Origin: a virus
Strand: one strand, 5' to 3'
IMG/VR virus record: IMGVR_UViG_3300027906_000186
Coordinates: 1-20,967 of that record
Length of the DNA: 20,967 nt
Shown piece after piece: positions 4,835-20,967 of this stretch; position 1 is the first letter of the stretch, and each line of letters starts with the position of its first letter. The notes beneath the pieces are model-generated. The model was given only the letters and a program-made list of their open reading frames with translations. It did no database searches and was not told where the DNA came from. Made by a program: the position numbers and the translations under genes.

Positions 4835-7374
4835 TGGCTACAGGCTGGAATACATTCCCAATAGAGTTTAGAGGTGGTCTAATCTCTAACATGAGCTTAC
4901 TACAGCAAGGTATTAATGCTGTTGGTTCTGCCTCTACTTTACAAAACTTTGAAGTAGACAAAGAAGGTGGCTACAAAAAGATAAAAGGCTTTTCTAAGTT
5001 TACAGATTTTACAATTCCAGGAACAGGAGATACTTTAGGTCTTAAAGTAGTATCCAACGCTAGGTTAATTGTTGCACGTAAAGTAAACTCTGCTACCGTA
5101 ACAGAAAGACAGACTGCTACATCTACAGTAAACGGTGCTACTTCATCAACCACTGCAGTAGCCCTTGATACAAACACTGCTACAGCTATAGTAAATGGTG
5201 CTGTTTCTTCTGGTACTGCATTAACCTTAGACAGAGCAAGAACTTTTACAGCAGTAACAGGTAGCTCCTCTCTAGCTGGTGCAAGTGCTACATTTAACGT
5301 AACAAATACAAATGGCACGTACACAGCCGCAATAAATGCAGCAGGTACAGGCTTTAAAGTTAATGAAACGGTAACAGTAGTAGGTGCAAACTTAGGTGGT
5401 GCTACTTCAGCAAACAACGCAACTGTTACAGTTACTTCTATTGGTTCTAGTGCTGCTACATATACTAATCCAACGCAATCTAGCTATAGTGGTTCTGGTA
5501 GTAGTGCTACATTTAATATTACTAAAACAGGTACTACATACACAGTAGCTATTAGTGCTGCAGGTTCAGGTTACGCAGCTAATGAAACAATTAAAGTAGT
5601 AGGTACACAGTTAAATGGTGCTACTACTGCTAATGATGCAACTATTACAATAACTACAGTAAATGGATCAGGTGGCATAACAGCAGCTACCATAGCAGGT
5701 ACAGGTTTAGCAGAAGGACCAATAACAGGAGTTTCTATTGCTGGCACTGGTGTAAGTTTTACTGGAACTATCACTAAAGGAATGCTTGTAACTGGTACTG
5801 GTATCTCTGGGGATTTGGTAGTAAAGACAGTAACAAATCAGAATACTCTTGTATTAGATAGAGCAGCAACTATTGCTGATAACGTTGTACTTACTTTCAA
5901 TACCAATATAAAAGCAGGTATGTTTGTGACAGGTACAGGTATATCTGGTACGGTTACTGTAGCATCAGTTACAAATCAAAACAGTATAACACTTTCATCT
6001 GCTCAGTCTCTATCTGACAATACCGTTCTTACTTTTGGTGACCTTGTTACTGCAGATGTAGATAAAACTGCTTACTACTATAGCACTGGTACTGATTGGA
6101 TATTTACTGCTGTTAGTACAAACACAAACGGTGGTAAAGTAAATCAAGCTGATTTTAATTTTGATGGTACTGATAAGATTGTTTTTGTTGATGGTACAAG
6201 CTACCCTAGTATATACAATGTTTCTAATAATACACAAACAAATCTGACAGCCGCTAGTGCAAACATTAATACAGATGTGTTAGGCGCAGAACGTGTAGTA
6301 ATATTTAAGAACACAGCATTTTATACTAAAGAAAATAAACTCTACTTCACAGCACCATCAACTGTAGATAACTTCTCAGTAGCAGATGGCGCAGGTAGTA
6401 TAAACCTAGCACATAATATTACAGGTATAGTTGTCTTCCGTGAACAACTAATTATTTTTACAACAGACACAGTAAGCAGATTAACAGGTAGCTCTACTGC
6501 AGACTTTAGACTACAACCTATAACAGAAAATATAGGGTGTATAAATGGGGATACAGTTCAAGAGGTTGGTGGAGACATAATGTATCTTGCTCCTGATGGA
6601 CTAAGATTATTATCTGCTACGGATCGTATAGGTGACTTTGCTTTGGACGTTGCCTCTGATAAAATAAAAGAAGATGCTTCTAAATTTTTAAGTGGTACTA
6701 CTGCATACTGCTCTACTGTGGTTAGGGAAAAGTCTCAATATAGAGTTTTCTCTTATGTATCAAGTAGGGCTTCCTCTGCTTCTGATGGTTTGATAGCTAC
6801 TAAACTATCAGCACAAGGTTCAGATGGTATTGAGTGGTCTACTACAAAAGGAATAAAAGCTAGTGTTATAGATAGTGCATACAACATAACTAATGCTACA
6901 GAAACAGTAGCTTTTTCAAATAATGATAACTATGCATATTTACTAGATTCAGGTAATACTTTTGATGGCACAAACATAGAAGCTATTATGCAAACTGCAT
7001 TCATGCCTATAAATGATCCACAGATTAGAAAAACTTTTTATAAAGCTGTTTTATTTATAGACCCAGAAGGTACTATTGACTTAGACTTTTCAGTCAGATA
7101 TGACTTTGAATCTTTACTAAGAAACGATATTAGGCAACCAGATATAATAGAAATAAAAACAGCGACATCACCTTCTGTTGCAATCTTTGGTGGTGGTGCT
7201 TTATTTAACGCATCAGGTGGCGTTGTCTTTAGCTCTAACTTAGAAAAAGTATACCCTGTAAATGTAATAGGATCAGGAGATACAATAGCTTTACGGATTT
7301 CAGATGTAACATCAAATCCATCTTTTACATTAGACACATGTGTGTTAGAATATAAACAAAACGACAGGCAATAA
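4834..7374 (+). CDS. Tail nozzle (tubular protein B-like) with inserted repeat modules
   Basis: 846 residues. The start is typical of podovirus nozzle proteins: FRGGLISNMSLLQQG, then STLQNFEVDKEGGYKKIKGF. The second half (about 402-846) has blade-like motifs expected of the beta-propeller barrel, for example NFDGTDKIVFVDG, REQLIIFTTDTVSRLTG, DIMYLAPDGLRLLSATDRIG and YKAVLFIDPEGTIDLDF. Between them, residues about 95-401 are Thr/Ala/Gly-rich repeats: two copies of SATFN-T---TYT--I-AAG-G---NET and two copies of GM-VTGTGISG---V--VTNQN. These look like decorations inserted into the propeller. In the virion the nozzle sits below the adaptor and forms the DNA channel exit. The length is at the upper end for the family because of the insertion. 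Confidence 0.75.
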   Translation: MATGWNTFPIEFRGGLISNMSLLQQGINAVGSASTLQNFEVDKEGGYKKIKGFSKFTDFTIPGTGDTLGLKVVSNARLIVARKVNSATVTERQTATSTVNGATSSTTAVALDTNTATAIVNGAVSSGTALTLDRARTFTAVTGSSSLAGASATFNVTNTNGTYTAAINAAGTGFKVNETVTVVGANLGGATSANNATVTVTSIGSSAATYTNPTQSSYSGSGSSATFNITKTGTTYTVAISAAGSGYAANETIKVVGTQLNGATTANDATITITTVNGSGGITAATIAGTGLAEGPITGVSIAGTGVSFTGTITKGMLVTGTGISGDLVVKTVTNQNTLVLDRAATIADNVVLTFNTNIKAGMFVTGTGISGTVTVASVTNQNSITLSSAQSLSDNTVLTFGDLVTADVDKTAYYYSTGTDWIFTAVSTNTNGGKVNQADFNFDGTDKIVFVDGTSYPSIYNVSNNTQTNLTAASANINTDVLGAERVVIFKNTAFYTKENKLYFTAPSTVDNFSVADGAGSINLAHNITGIVVFREQLIIFTTDTVSRLTGSSTADFRLQPITENIGCINGDTVQEVGGDIMYLAPDGLRLLSATDRIGDFALDVASDKIKEDASKFLSGTTAYCSTVVREKSQYRVFSYVSSRASSASDGLIATKLSAQGSDGIEWSTTKGIKASVIDSAYNITNATETVAFSNNDNYAYLLDSGNTFDGTNIEAIMQTAFMPINDPQIRKTFYKAVLFIDPEGTIDLDFSVRYDFESLLRNDIRQPDIIEIKTATSPSVAIFGGGALFNASGGVVFSSNLEKVYPVNVIGSGDTIALRISDVTSNPSFTLDTCVLEYKQNDRQ
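5284..6036 (+). repeat. Two pairs of internal modules in the nozzle protein
   Basis: Module A occurs at 5284-5442 and 5503-5661 (residues 151-203 and 224-276, offset 73 residues). Both copies read SATFN-T, TYT-AI-AAG-G, NET--VVG--L-GAT-AN-AT-T-T. Module B occurs at 5770-5898 and 5908-6036 (residues 313-355 and 359-401, offset 46). Both read I--GM-VTGTGISG, V--VTNQN, then L-----S/ADN-VLTF. Neither belongs to the core propeller pattern. Confidence 0.85.
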
Positions 7375-15702: not shown

Positions 15703-18700
15703 ATGGCAACTCTTTTTGAAAACCAACGTAAATTTGGAGATCTCTTAGGTCGGCAAAGTGCTAGTACTAGCCCTACACCTGACAGGGAAGAAGACTTTTA
15801 CATAGATAAAAACCTAACCCTAAAGAAAGATGACCTAACTAAGTACCAGTATGTAACACCCATACGTAGCTACATGGTAGAACGTAAAGGTGCTGACTAC
15901 AGAAACAAAACTGATGAAGAAGTGGTTGATGATTTTGTACAGCACATGCGTTACTTCAATGCAAACACTGTGTCAACTACAGGTGAACTTAGGTTTATAA
16001 ATAAAGCAGATGAAAAAACTAAAGCAAGGGCTGGTAAAGCCTATGAGATATATGAACAGCTAGGTAACGTGTTTCAGAATGATGGGGCTATGGGTGCTGT
16101 TGATGGTGTAAAAGACTACATCTTTGCTGCAGCAGCAGATCCAACAAACTATTTAGGTTTAATTACTGGTGGTGTAGGAAGACTTGCTGCAGGTAGTTTT
16201 ACAGTTACAGGTAAAAAAGTTGTTAAAGAGAGCGTAAGAAAAGCAGGAATGAAAGCCGCTTTAGATGGTGCAACTCGAAAACAAGTTAAAAAAGCTGCCA
16301 AGAAAGCAGGGATGGAAGCTACTAAGAGAGCAATCAACTCTGGTGTATCTAAGTATCAGTCTAAAAAAGTAGCAGAAAAAGTAACTAAGCAGGTAACAAA
16401 AGAAGGACGCAAGAGTATAGCTTTTGATGCTATGAAAGCTAAACAAGAGGAGCTTTTTAAACAAGCAGGTAAAACTGCTTTGAAAGCTACGGTTGTGGGT
16501 GATGCAGGTTTTGCTGTAATGCAAGATGTATTAGCTCAAAATACTTTGATGGAAGCTGGCGCACAAGAACAGTTTAGTAAAACACAAACAGCTTTCTCTT
16601 CTTTGCTGGGTGGTGTAGCAGGTGCAGCACAGCTAGGCTTTGGTAAGTTTCGTGGGGCGTCTGGCTTTGAAGACACAGGTAATACTTTAGAAAAAATAGC
16701 TAACTCTGCTATAGAAAGTAACTCAGCTATGTTTTCAAAGAAAGATTCCAAAGCTGTAGCAAAACAAATAAAACAAGACGTTAAAAAATGGAATGAGAAA
16801 GTAGCCAGAGGTTATGAGATAAACACTGCTGTTATGCCATCTGAATTAGTTAAGACTATAACATTAGGTGAAGACGGTAAAGGAGGTTTGGCAAAGATAC
16901 TACACGACAAAGGCAGGAAGATACCAAAAAATAAAAAGGTAGCTGATGTCATAACTAATGTAGTTAGATTCTTACCTGAAGAAGACCTTATTGAAATTAA
17001 CAAAGCTATGGGTAAGTACACAGACCTAAAGCTAGGAGAGATAAGTGAAGACGGAGGCACAGAGCTAAGAGATTTACTGGCTAAAGATATATCTGAAGCA
17101 GGTAAAACACTAGCTGTAATGTCACAGGCACGTAGAATTATAGATACAGGAATAGTGGCTGCTGGAGGCAAAGCTAAACGTACTCTGGAAGATGACATAG
17201 AAGATGCTGTTAATGAGGTTAAAAAACTAAAAGCAGCACAGCCTCTAAAGTATGGACAGTCTGTGTGGAAACGTTTACTTGTATCATCTCCTGCTACTAC
17301 CATGATTAACGTGGCTGGCTTTGCTCAGTACTACGTAGGTCAGACTATGGCTGACTTGTTTAACTCTACTATGTTAGGCATGAAAGCTATGGGTCAGATG
17401 ACATACAACACGGCTGCTGCTAGAGAGACAGCACGTCAAGCACGTGTATTAACTCAGATACAGTCACAAAAGTTCCGTAACTTACTTGACCCTTACACTA
17501 CACATGATACATACATGGATTTTTTAAATGATGCTAATAATGAGGCAACAAGGAAAAAATTATTTGAGACTATGGCAGGTGGCGTAGAGGCTACAGCAGA
17601 AAGGTTCAACATAAATCCTAATAGTAAATTGTATCAGAACGTAGAAGCGGCAGCACAGGCGGCAAGCAACGTGTCAGGAGTACGTATACAAGATAGCTTT
17701 ACTAAGTCTCAAATGTTTATGACAGAGATGGATAAGTATCTAAGACTGAATAAAAAGATGACTCTAAAAGAGGCTATAATAAAAGGAGAAGAACCTGATG
17801 TAGAAGCTGTGCAAGGTGCGCTGGACAGTACACTCAAGTCTGTGTTTGCAAAAGATTACACAACAGATGAGACACCAGAGCTACTACGTACTACAGCTAA
17901 GTTTGCTGAAACTTTTTCTAACACCCCAGGTTTTGGTACACTGTTACCTTTTGGTAGATTTTTTAACAATGTTTTAGCTACAACCTATCAGTGGTCACCA
18001 CTAGCTGCACCTCAGCAGTTCTATAAGTTTGCTAGAAACCTTTACACCAAAGAACCTGACGTAACAGACAGAGATGCTTTTGCTCGTATGGTTGTGGGTA
18101 GCACTGCTCTACGATTGTCTATGGATTTTGATAATGAGAGAAGAGAAAAAGGTTTAGGTGTATATGAAGTAGACGTTGGCGGTGGTACTATTATAGATGC
18201 TAAGAACACGTTTCCTTTTTCTATATGGTTAGCTGCAGGTAGAGTTTTGAACACCATGAGAAATGGTGAGCAGGTATCAGCAGACTTACAAAAAGAAATA
18301 GGTACACAGTTAGTTGTAGGTCAGCTTGCACGTGACGCACAGTTTGGCAACGACATAAACAATCTGTTAGATGTATTAACTAATGTAGATGTAGACAAGA
18401 GAGCAGCCTCTATAGATGGTTTCTACAAAGTAGGTGGTAACTTTATCTCAGGCTTTACTCGTCCTTTAGATGTACTCAATAAAGCTGTAGGTTTTGCTAC
18501 AGGCACAGACACAGCTAAAGATGTACGACAGGCAGAAGGTGGTGCTGTGTTTACACAGTCAGCTACTAAGTATGTTGATAACATATTTGAAACTTTTATT
18601 GATGCAGTAGAAGGTGTAACAGGTAAAGACTTTGAAGCTGTTAATAAAACTTTAACAGGAGAAGAATTAAATGTAAGCACAAGAGCAGGAGATGTCTATG

Positions 18701-19200
18701 ACGCTAATCCTTTTGCACGTATGTTTGGTCTAACAATAAAACCTAGTAGGACTTCTACAGAAATAGCATACTCAATGGCAGACATGGCTACGTGGAGTGC
18801 TAGTGAAAGAACAAACATGCCAGCTTACGATAAAATATTTAACGGTATGCTTGCGCCAATGTTGGAAAGATATACACAACAACTAGTGGACGATCCTAAA
18901 TTTCAAAAAGCTAACCTAGCTAATAAGCGTGACCAGCTTACAAAAACATTGAACCAAGTTAAAGAATTGGTTCGTGATAGGATGGATAAGTATGGAGATA
19001 GAGACACTCGTATATTAAATAAAGCCAGAAAAGCTTCTACAGGATTTAAAAAAGAAGTAAAGAGGGAAGCTTTAAAATTGATGGAAGAAAACTATGGAGT
19101 TACAGGAAAACTAGAAGACCTAAGTTGGCAAGAGCTTGAACTTTTTATAAGGTTAGGAAATTATATAACAGACGTAAATGAAGAGGTAGCTAAACTATAA
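15703..19200 (+). CDS. Very large probable internal virion/DNA-ejection protein (1165 aa)
   Basis: 1165 residues, the largest protein in the window. Landmarks are KYQYVTPIRSYMVERKGADY near 48-66 and a Gly/Ala-rich hydrophobic patch at 138-166 (DYIFAAAADPTNYLGLITGG). A Lys-rich stretch at about 170-265 is followed by a second Gly/Ala-rich patch near 295-312 (FSSLLGGVAGAAQLGFG). A further hydrophobic segment lies near 528-560 (SSPATTMINVAGFAQYYVG). No catalytic motif is visible. Size, position at the end of the structural block and partly membrane-compatible segments fit the giant internal proteins that podoviruses push into the cell to make a DNA conduit. AGGAA lies upstream of the ATG at 15703. 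I assign the role from context. Confidence 0.7.
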   Translation: MATLFENQRKFGDLLGRQSASTSPTPDREEDFYIDKNLTLKKDDLTKYQYVTPIRSYMVERKGADYRNKTDEEVVDDFVQHMRYFNANTVSTTGELRFINKADEKTKARAGKAYEIYEQLGNVFQNDGAMGAVDGVKDYIFAAAADPTNYLGLITGGVGRLAAGSFTVTGKKVVKESVRKAGMKAALDGATRKQVKKAAKKAGMEATKRAINSGVSKYQSKKVAEKVTKQVTKEGRKSIAFDAMKAKQEELFKQAGKTALKATVVGDAGFAVMQDVLAQNTLMEAGAQEQFSKTQTAFSSLLGGVAGAAQLGFGKFRGASGFEDTGNTLEKIANSAIESNSAMFSKKDSKAVAKQIKQDVKKWNEKVARGYEINTAVMPSELVKTITLGEDGKGGLAKILHDKGRKIPKNKKVADVITNVVRFLPEEDLIEINKAMGKYTDLKLGEISEDGGTELRDLLAKDISEAGKTLAVMSQARRIIDTGIVAAGGKAKRTLEDDIEDAVNEVKKLKAAQPLKYGQSVWKRLLVSSPATTMINVAGFAQYYVGQTMADLFNSTMLGMKAMGQMTYNTAAARETARQARVLTQIQSQKFRNLLDPYTTHDTYMDFLNDANNEATRKKLFETMAGGVEATAERFNINPNSKLYQNVEAAAQAASNVSGVRIQDSFTKSQMFMTEMDKYLRLNKKMTLKEAIIKGEEPDVEAVQGALDSTLKSVFAKDYTTDETPELLRTTAKFAETFSNTPGFGTLLPFGRFFNNVLATTYQWSPLAAPQQFYKFARNLYTKEPDVTDRDAFARMVVGSTALRLSMDFDNERREKGLGVYEVDVGGGTIIDAKNTFPFSIWLAAGRVLNTMRNGEQVSADLQKEIGTQLVVGQLARDAQFGNDINNLLDVLTNVDVDKRAASIDGFYKVGGNFISGFTRPLDVLNKAVGFATGTDTAKDVRQAEGGAVFTQSATKYVDNIFETFIDAVEGVTGKDFEAVNKTLTGEELNVSTRAGDVYDANPFARMFGLTIKPSRTSTEIAYSMADMATWSASERTNMPAYDKIFNGMLAPMLERYTQQLVDDPKFQKANLANKRDQLTKTLNQVKELVRDRMDKYGDRDTRILNKARKASTGFKKEVKREALKLMEENYGVTGKLEDLSWQELELFIRLGNYITDVNEEVAKL

Positions 19201-19212: not shown

Positions 19213-19287
19213 ATGAGAAGGTATCTAAAGAGGCTATGGTGTGCCTTGAGAAATAAAAAGTGCAGTCCAACTTGTGACTGTGTATAA
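19213..19287 (+). CDS. 24-residue basic, Cys-rich small protein
   Basis: ATG at 19213 to TAA at 19285-19287 encodes 24 residues, starting MRRYLKRLWCAL and ending KKCSPTCDCV. The N-terminal half is an Arg/Lys-rich amphipathic helix with Trp and Leu. The C-terminal half has three Cys (C-x3-C-x-C) plus one earlier Cys10, which could bind metal or form disulfides. It is supported by the very strong ribosome site, the correct spacing and its place as last gene before the terminator, so it would share the abundant late transcript. The function is unknown; membrane binding or a metal-bound mini-domain are guesses. Confidence 0.65.
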   Translation: MRRYLKRLWCALRNKKCSPTCDCV

Positions 19288-19289
19288 AA

Positions 19290-19320
19290 GAAGGGGCGCT
19301 TAATGCGCCCTTTTTATTTT
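19290..19320 (+). terminator. Rho-independent terminator, probably bidirectional
   Basis: GGGCGC (19294-19299), loop TTAAT, GCGCCC (19305-19310), then TTTTTATTTT. A G-T and two A-T pairs extend the stem. It lies three bases past the 24-codon ORF on the plus strand. Read on the minus strand, the same hairpin is followed by CTTCTTTTA, a weaker U-run, so it can also end the converging operon. The plus-strand T-run overlaps the stop codon (19314-19316) of the 63-aa minus-strand gene. Confidence 0.9.
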
Positions 19321-19505
19321 GTATAGCTATGTCCTGCCCACATCTTACACTCAAGGAGTTTATCCCTAGCTTTCTTGCGTTGGTCATTATCCTCAAGGTT
19401 ATCTAGTAGGAACTTATCCACTACTCTTATGGCAGTGTTCAAGTCATTCTTGAACTGTTCACGCTTGGCCTCCATGTAATTTGTAGCTTCACGTTCTAGT
19501 TTCAT
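19314..19505 (-). CDS. Acb2/Tad1-like hairpin-domain protein, putative anti-defence protein
   Basis: 63 residues, wholly helical. After a charged first helix (REATNYMEAKREQFKNDLNT) comes IRVVDKFLLDNLEDNDQRKK, then ARDKLLECKMWAGHSYTK. The R-x2-A-x2-KL-x-E-x2-MWA-x-S pattern is what I recall for the Acb2/Tad1 helical hairpin (D..R..AL.KLEEA.MWA..AIA). Members of that group bind cyclic nucleotides or cADPR-type signals and so block CBASS or Thoeris immunity. The size fits the hairpin alone; no extra beta domain is seen. The ATG overlaps the nuclease gene's TAA by one base (TAATG on the minus strand), and AAAAGG lies upstream. The assignment rests on motif memory; a generic small coiled-coil protein is the alternative. 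Confidence 0.6.
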   Translation of the reverse strand: MKLEREATNYMEAKREQFKNDLNTAIRVVDKFLLDNLEDNDQRKKARDKLLECKMWAGHSYTK

Positions 19506-20068
19506 TAAGCTGCCTTTTCTAAATTTACTGATAGTTTATTTAATATATCTTTAGCCTGTTCTATACTTATCTTAAACCATTCACCTCTTTGTTCTTCAGC
19601 TATCTTAGATGCTGCTATGTGGGCTTTAGCTTCTGCTTTACGTCTGTTGTTTGTTACAACCGTATGCTCTAGTTTGTAGTCTCTGAAAGGACTGCTAGTC
19701 TGATAGCCATTACATCTATCATCAGCATCTACAGCCATACCTATCTTGACCCACTCAGACCAAGCAGGATTAGTTATAGCATACACGTATCCCTCTTTGA
19801 TAGAGTCTAACTTGTACGTACCATCAAAGGCTGCATCACTAAAAGTTTTGTAGCGTCCTGCTTTATATAGTGGGTGTGTTTTTGAGATGTACTTACCATT
19901 TACATACATTTGAGTTTTATTAGTTCTAACTGCATGCCTACGTGCCTCTTTTCTATGACATGTAATGCAATAGGGAAGACCTCCTGCTTTACCTCTTCTT
20001 ACATAGAAATCCCTAGCTGAATTTACACCTTTTATTAATTCAATATTACAACGTCTGCATTTACTCAT
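19505..20068 (-). CDS. Zinc-ribbon + GIY-YIG (T5orf172/MUG113-type) nuclease
   Basis: 187 residues when started at 20068. This ATG has a perfect AGGAGGT five bases upstream (20074-20080) and yields MSKCRRC, placing the first Cys pair at the very start. An in-frame upstream ATG at 20143 would overlap the 65-aa gene and has no such site. A Cys4 cluster (C4-x2-C7, C34-x2-C37) forms a small zinc-finger DNA-binding module. The C-terminal domain shows the GIY-YIG layout: GYVYAI at 93-98 (GIY), WVKIG at 106-110 (YIG), Arg118, Glu146 in RKAEAKAH, and GEWF at 162-165, as in T5orf172 proteins. Phage members may act as homing, DNA-processing or host-DNA nucleases; which applies here cannot be told. Confidence 0.8.
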   Translation of the reverse strand: MSKCRRCNIELIKGVNSARDFYVRRGKAGGLPYCITCHRKEARRHAVRTNKTQMYVNGKYISKTHPLYKAGRYKTFSDAAFDGTYKLDSIKEGYVYAITNPAWSEWVKIGMAVDADDRCNGYQTSSPFRDYKLEHTVVTNNRRKAEAKAHIAASKIAEEQRGEWFKISIEQAKDILNKLSVNLEKAA

Positions 20069-20069
20069 T

Positions 20070-20267
20070 CTATACCTCCTGTGGTATTTGTGTACACCAT
20101 ACCCAATAATCTGCTTCAGACATAGAGGGCGGTCTAGTAGCATCTAAATATTTACTACGTATATCTACAGCCACATTACATTTATCTCTACTTTCGTATA
20201 AGATATTGTCGGACATAACCATTGGCTCTCCATCAAACATAAAGAGTGCTACTAAGATCCAAGCCAT
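20070..20267 (-). CDS. 65-aa protein with hydrophobic N-terminus
   Basis: 65 residues. The start MAWILVALFMFDGEP is a short hydrophobic segment, too short for a confident span but possible as an inner-membrane anchor or export signal. Two Cys (30 and 58) and WVWC near the end could pair in a disulfide if exported. Small phage proteins with the layout MxWxLVxxFMxxGxP...C are, from memory, common in marine phages and have no known function. AAGGA lies upstream. The ribosome site of the nuclease gene lies inside this gene and only one base separates stop and start, so translation is coupled. Confidence 0.65.
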   Translation of the reverse strand: MAWILVALFMFDGEPMVMSDNILYESRDKCNVAVDIRSKYLDATRPPSMSEADYWVWCTQIPQEV

Positions 20268-20396: not shown

Positions 20397-20967
20397 CTAT
20401 GTTATATCGACTATTTCACACACGTCACCAGAGCAAGCAAATGTTTGGCTCGACTTCGTGTTGTCTTCTTGTTCATACTCTGAAAGCTTGTTCCAGTCAA
20501 TCTTTTCTGGCATACACGATAATAAAAATTCGTAATCATGCTTACCACAATCTTGATAAGGTGCTTGCTGATAGGTATGGTCTGAGTGTGGTAGGAAAGA
20601 TACACCCGACATTTCATCGAAGTGTTTATAAACGAATGCTCCCACATCTAACCATTCGTCATCTCGTACTGATATCGTAACTGAGGGCTTATGCTCACAC
20701 CAATAGCGTTGGTACATGAGCCAAGTCTCTAGCTGTTCAATAGCAGTCATATCGTTGCGTGTTATAGCCATCTCTGGTGATTTGACAGGGAAGCTAAACA
20801 CAGTTGTAGTGTCACCCTTAAATACACAAGGCTCATTAGGAACCTTCTGATCTATCATAAACTGTGTAAGGGGATCTTTATTATCACCTCGTACAGTACG
20901 GATGTAATATGGAGAGTGACGAGCATGTATACCACTGGCACTGTCAACGAGTTGTGAGACAGTACCC
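20397..20967 (-). CDS. Class II (B12-dependent) ribonucleotide reductase, C-terminal part
   Basis: The frame runs in from the right edge without a stop; the last 189 residues are present. Diagnostic stretches are GTVSQLVDSASGIHARHSPY, then YIRTVRGDNKDPLTQF, and further on DEMSGVSFLPHSDHTYQQAP, typical of adenosylcobalamin-dependent ribonucleotide reductases in marine phages. The tail ends CSGDVCEIVDIT; the Cys-x4-Cys pair matches the C-terminal dithiol that re-reduces the active site in the monomeric class II enzyme. The enzyme makes deoxyribonucleotides for phage DNA replication and needs host-derived cobalamin. The active-site Cys and cofactor-binding parts are outside the window. It heads the leftward operon. 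Confidence 0.9.
   Translation of the reverse strand, partial: GTVSQLVDSASGIHARHSPYYIRTVRGDNKDPLTQFMIDQKVPNEPCVFKGDTTTVFSFPVKSPEMAITRNDMTAIEQLETWLMYQRYWCEHKPSVTISVRDDEWLDVGAFVYKHFDEMSGVSFLPHSDHTYQQAPYQDCGKHDYEFLLSCMPEKIDWNKLSEYEQEDNTKSSQTFACSGDVCEIVDIT

Follow-up and report, generated by a model that had tools for sequence, protein, structure and literature searches.

The gene at positions 19314-19505 (minus strand) of the window, by which we mean the whole stretch of 20,967 nucleotides analysed, encodes a predicted two-helix protein of 63 aa, which we place in the Acb2/Tad1 hairpin superfamily as one of its divergent members. The best reading of this gene, which we hold tentatively, is that it encodes a counter-defence nucleotide sponge with an altered pocket. 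The protein is compact and divergent and has the Acb2/Tad1 hairpin; it belongs to marine phages related to HMO-2011, and its gene occupies a variable accessory slot at the distal end of the early operon.

Several lines of evidence show that the hairpin ORF is a real gene and not a chance ORF. Firstly, translation of the ORF from 19505 to 19314 on the minus strand gives the 63-aa product MKLEREATNYMEAKREQFKNDLNTAIRVVDKFLLDNLEDNDQRKKARDKLLECKMWAGHSYTK, which contains the motif R43-x2-A46-x2-K49-L50-x-E52-x2-M55-W56-A57 exactly as it had been read in a previous inspection of the letters alone (hereafter, the sequence-only reading). Secondly, 18 IMG/VR loci encode this product at 80-98% identity. 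Comparison with one of the relatives (L016) gave changes by codon position of 9/4/26, the third position being the most variable, and the substitutions among relatives are mostly synonymous, which indicates that the ORF is translated and under purifying selection. Thirdly, the Roseobacter phages CRP-2, CRP-207 and CRP-603 encode a 68-aa homologue, 28-36% identical, at the equivalent position. Since E52, M55 and W56 are invariant even in relatives with an overall identity of only 27-41%, the motif cannot be attributed to chance. Two segments can be distinguished within the protein. Residues 20-62 (19320-19448, minus strand) form the segment homologous to the Pfam family PF24729, with 43 aligned columns and conserved A46, L50, E52, M55, W56 and A57, and residues 1-19 (19449-19505, minus strand) form the N-terminal part of the first helix, which cannot be aligned to the Acb2 N-terminus.

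The sequence-only reading had matched the end of the protein to the hairpin shared by Acb2 and Tad1. At the level of the superfamily this proposal holds through the relatives of the ORF, whereas the 63-aa ORF alone gave no match in Pfam, PHROGs, NCBIfam or the PDB, and none in PADLOC. PF24729 (Acb2_Tad1_hairpin) was found in 18 of the 31 relatives, with a best E-value of 0.0012 and all of them below its curated cut-off of 27 bits; this cut-off was therefore reached neither by the window ORF, which has no match, nor by its relatives. No other family among the 24,736 in Pfam was found in more than two of these 31 proteins. Similarly, phrog_1454, one of 38,880 PHROGs, was found in 20 of the 31, with a best E-value of 1.8e-6. 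When the marine family was aligned by hhalign with six PF24729 proteins that match at the curated level, the result was 95.3% (P 2.3e-8) over 43 ungapped columns, against at most 18.8% (P 0.0013) in a control of 300 column shuffles of the target, and the close window subgroup alone still gave 74%. A small alignment of Acb2 proteins only received weak hhalign support (31%, 19 columns), so that the firm link to the hairpin runs through bridging short proteins only.

This bridge starts with Sulfitobacter phage phiCB2047-B. The C-terminus of its protein SUFG_00048 matches PF24729 at 33.4 bits, which is above the cut-off, and it is the best target of the marine family profile (hhalign 94%); the window ORF itself is 30% identical to it over 33 residues (8e-5 for that single comparison). 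SUFG_00048 leads in turn to short proteins, mostly of 67-81 aa, encoded by Streptomyces, Gordonia, Mycobacterium, Microbacterium and Paenibacillus phages, in which PF24729 scores 53-90 bits. A profile of six of these bridging proteins matches both Acb2 homolog 43 (PDB 9ptq; 3.5e-8) and Tad1 (0.0055). The marine family profile also matches T4 Vs.4, weakly (12.2 bits), and a search of the PDB with the A2 profile found neither Acb2 nor Tad1. Based on the matches of the relatives to PF24729 and phrog_1454, the hhalign result set against its shuffles, and the phiCB2047-B bridge, we conclude that the hairpin ORF very probably shares common descent with the Acb2/Tad1 hairpin domain.

An AlphaFold single-chain model, for which the alignment consisted of the IMG/VR loci and the window only, predicts a hairpin of two helices (residues 2-36 and 41-62) with a pLDDT of 93. 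The helices are predicted to be antiparallel, and the hairpin has the L-x-E-x2-MWA core. The sequence-only reading had named Foldseek on a predicted multimer as a check; here it was run with single-chain models. On the one hand, in BFVD several neighbours that carry the name Acb2/Tad1 hairpin, as well as phiCB2047-B, superpose at 0.7-1.0 A over 42-49 residues, with weak E-values, from 0.14 upward, for the Acb2/Tad1-named matches. On the other hand, no Acb2 or Tad1 was present among the 50 PDB matches listed for either of two models, which were generic hairpins.

In size and helical hairpin region, the protein resembles short phrog_1454/PF24729 proteins such as those of Paenibacillus phage Lily (67 aa) and Mycobacterium phage Pharaoh (69 aa), and the ungapped alignment with these proteins contains conserved A, L, E and W positions. 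However, their F-x-[FY]-H N-terminus and their G-R-E-K...T signature are replaced in the window family, the R mostly by an acidic residue and the T by D, K or E. Acb2 homolog 43 (76 aa, six chains in the PDB entry) is compact like the window protein, but it keeps GREKS..TKLEEAM and has no significant direct match to it; it does weakly match the CRP-207 homologue UAW58928.1 (0.68). In the case of Acb2 itself (T4 Vs.4, PDB 7uq2; Pseudomonas phage, PDB 8h2j), the core of the C-terminal helix, KTKLKEASMWA, resembles DKLLECKMWA of the window protein, although Acb2 has a length of 88-93 aa and possesses an IKGY (Y8) segment and a T68, both of which the window protein lacks. The C-terminal hairpin of Tad1 (PDB 7uav, 8kbe) belongs to the same Pfam domain and is linked to the window protein through the bridging profile, but Tad1 has in addition an N-terminal beta-sheet domain (PMC12043709) that is missing here. 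SUFG_00048 shares its C-terminal hairpin with the window protein and differs from it in its length of 188 aa, its upstream RyR domain and its retention of the signature R and T. This one protein (L102, 1075-1641) combines the RyR domain (3.3e-10) with an Acb2/Tad1 hairpin (5.4e-8), which may have a bearing on how nucleotides are sensed or sequestered. In mycobacteriophages, hairpin members already carry the annotation of cyclic nucleotide sequestering proteins (PMC11953737), and a Balomoji gene is named 'cyclic nucleotide inhibitor'. Proteins of 61-81 aa that consist of the hairpin only are widespread, and the 76-aa Acb2 homolog 43 is represented in the PDB; the window protein is thus not unusually short, contrary to the previous statement that it is much shorter than the described proteins, and the term 'stripped-down' applied to it was misleading.

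The pockets in which immune nucleotides are bound by Acb2 and Tad1 lie between the protomers of a hexamer (PMC12043709). It has been reported that the Y8A variant of T4 Acb2 is binding-deficient and that T68M lowers its affinity (PMC12657230), and our residue-level statements on Acb2 binding rest on that work. The short N-terminal helix/loop of Acb2 with its binding tyrosine (T4 Y8, IKGY) has no counterpart in the window protein, in which the N-terminus is the helix KLEREATNYMEAKREQF; the helix that stands in place of the Y8 region is specific to the family, and its residues E6, A7 and F18 do not vary. T4 T68 corresponds to window D48 in an ungapped alignment that runs through the shared K-T-K-L / R-D-K-L segment, and this binding-relevant threonine is absent in all 46 family sequences, which have K (18), D (17) or E (11) instead. 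Window D41 aligns with the arginine of G-R-E-K, and most family sequences have an acidic residue there. The N-terminal antiparallel beta-sheet domain of Tad1 is likewise absent, the model of the 63-aa protein being all-helical and without strands. Judged by these residues, the family has kept the scaffold and lost the documented Acb2 contacts. The proposal that the protein is a sponge against CBASS or Thoeris is weakened, because the Y8 region is absent, the T68 position is replaced and the Tad1 beta domain is missing; at the residue level, binding of a CBASS or Thoeris signal is not supported. Filing of the protein as Acb2 was ruled out by the Y8 and T68 positions, and filing as Tad1 by the missing beta domain. 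Further hallmarks are, for Acb2, a homohexamer with dinucleotide and trinucleotide pockets and, for Tad1, gcADPR binding and Thoeris inhibition. Acb4, whose structure is not homologous to that of Acb2 or Tad1 (PMC11722364), was also rejected, its fold being beta-containing and tetrameric versus the all-helical model obtained here.

The family-wide loss of the ligand-binding positions documented for Acb2 (positions from PMC12657230) favours the main rival explanation, according to which the hairpin has been repurposed: it would bind a host protein, a nucleic acid or a phage factor, or act as a helical adaptor, and would no longer sequester nucleotides. We regard this as a serious possibility, nearly as likely as a sponge with an altered pocket. 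It also fits with the N-terminal third of the protein being a new helix that has its own invariant residues, and with two related loci that join a similar N-terminus, MDLELEAKAFMESKR, to a zinc-ribbon-like sequence. It should be noted, however, that the known sponges differ widely in ligand and pocket, so that the loss of particular Acb2 contacts leaves binding possible, and that the conserved core positions of the hairpin domain have been kept.

The hairpin gene is the last gene of the early operon and faces a convergent late operon, both in the window and in CRP-2, CRP-207 and CRP-603. A bidirectional terminator-like stem-loop (19289-19315; 11 pairs on the plus strand and 6 on the minus strand) separates the two operons, and the convergent late gene (15703-19200, plus strand; 1165 aa) ends at 19200, in agreement with the position at the end of an early operon given by the sequence-only reading. 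The late gene product is 46-57% identical to its CRP-207 and CRP-603 counterparts (57% for CRP-207 and 48% for CRP-603), phages that we take to be members of the HMO-2011-type group (PMC9038755, PMC6918029). Directly 3' of the late gene, at 19213-19287 on the plus strand, lies an ORF of 24 aa, MRRYLKRLWCALRNKKCSPTCDCV, that contains cysteine and has a strong ribosome site, AAGGAGGTGA. At 328-2892, also on the plus strand, the window encodes a tail-fibre-like protein of 854 aa in which TxxELNILDGVTS is repeated about a dozen times in tandem; the 208-aa ORF on the opposite strand at 459-1085 mirrors these repeats and is an artefact.

Upstream of the hairpin gene lies a gene for a GIY-YIG-type nuclease of 212 aa (T5orf172/MUG113; 19505-20143, minus strand), which matches Pfam T5orf172 at 8.8e-12 as well as MUG113, and whose stop codon overlaps the hairpin ATG as TAATG. 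Both the overlap and the nuclease domain had been recognised before, but the coupling is incidental: the nuclease gene is a lineage-specific, non-conserved insertion. The insertion (approximately 19507-20071), which sits between a 65-aa ORF (20070-20267, minus strand) and the hairpin gene, is missing in one relative (L004, around 4998-5001) of which both flanks align at 94-96%. Three other relatives (L006, L015 and L005) also do not have the GIY-YIG gene, and a fourth (L017) has a different ORF, of 166 aa, in its place; where the GIY-YIG gene is absent, the 65-aa ORF directly precedes the hairpin gene. A meaningful linkage between the hairpin gene and the nuclease was ruled out by the absence of the latter in several relatives. 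Further upstream, the C-terminal part of a ribonucleotide reductase (20397-20858, minus strand; phrog_367 positions 556-699 of 701) marks the early DNA-metabolism operon.

The presence of the hairpin gene itself is patchy. It was found in 7 of the 16 related loci that carry the late-gene end, a rough figure in that the 16 include near-identical contigs, and the remaining loci have an endonuclease VII, a GIY-YIG gene only, a zinc-ribbon-like ORF or nothing in the slot. This patchy presence, together with the varying upstream genes, shows that the hairpin gene is accessory and that its slot is hypervariable. The zinc-ribbon-like ORF of L112 and L113 (3019-3240, minus strand in both), in which the hairpin-like N-terminus given above is followed by a cysteine-rich sequence, suggests that genes in the slot have been replaced by recombination. 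No relatives of the close family were found in the contigs of 84,980 prokaryotic genomes (one genome per species), and this family therefore looks phage-specific so far; a prophage or host origin for it was likewise not found in that contig set.

The operon also bears on the possibility that the hairpin acts not on immunity but on the nucleotide metabolism of the phage or host, which it could tune by binding, for instance, a (cyclic) nucleotide close to the ribonucleotide reductase pathway of the phage. The gene does share its operon with the ribonucleotide reductase in the window, and in the CRP phages it lies downstream of ribonucleotide reductase, glutaredoxin or MazG-type genes. However, a gene with a core metabolic role would not be expected to occur patchily in an accessory slot, and the ribonucleotide reductase stays while the hairpin gene varies; we consider this explanation very unlikely. 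Slightly less probable still is that the protein is an unrelated small helical hairpin whose LxExxMWA likeness is due to amphipathic helix sequences having converged: proteins of two helices have a simple structure, the ORF itself has no profile match and its listed PDB neighbours are generic hairpins, but PF24729 is the sole recurring family in Pfam, phrog_1454 dominates the PHROGs, and the ungapped register and the shuffle control speak against it.

Our preference for the altered-pocket sponge follows from the occurrence of the domain in known nucleotide sponges, from the close family being phage-specific so far and from the accessory slot that the gene occupies. The helical hairpin would self-assemble, as in Acb2 and Tad1, and the assembly would sequester a host immune nucleotide in a pocket built from residues that differ from those of Acb2 or Tad1. 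We infer that the protein may oligomerise, bind a nucleotide and serve in counter-defence. In a more specific and rather improbable form of this proposal, a re-built pocket would enable this subfamily of sponges to capture a signal that the known Acb2 or Tad1 proteins do not bind, and that would belong to an uncharacterised nucleotide-signalling defence of marine Roseobacter, SAR116 or SAR11 hosts.

Most genes of HMO-2011-type phages have no assigned function. Phages of this type have been reported to be dominant and broadly distributed marine viruses (PMC9038755). The candidate counter-defence gene described here is present in phage isolates (CRP-2, CRP-207 and CRP-603), which makes a defined test possible. 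The question is whether the hairpin has retained the binding of immune nucleotides after losing the documented Acb2 contacts. If it does bind them, it would represent a new pocket solution. If it does not, the automatic 'Acb2/Tad1 hairpin' labels that are spreading in phage annotation would not imply a sponge function.
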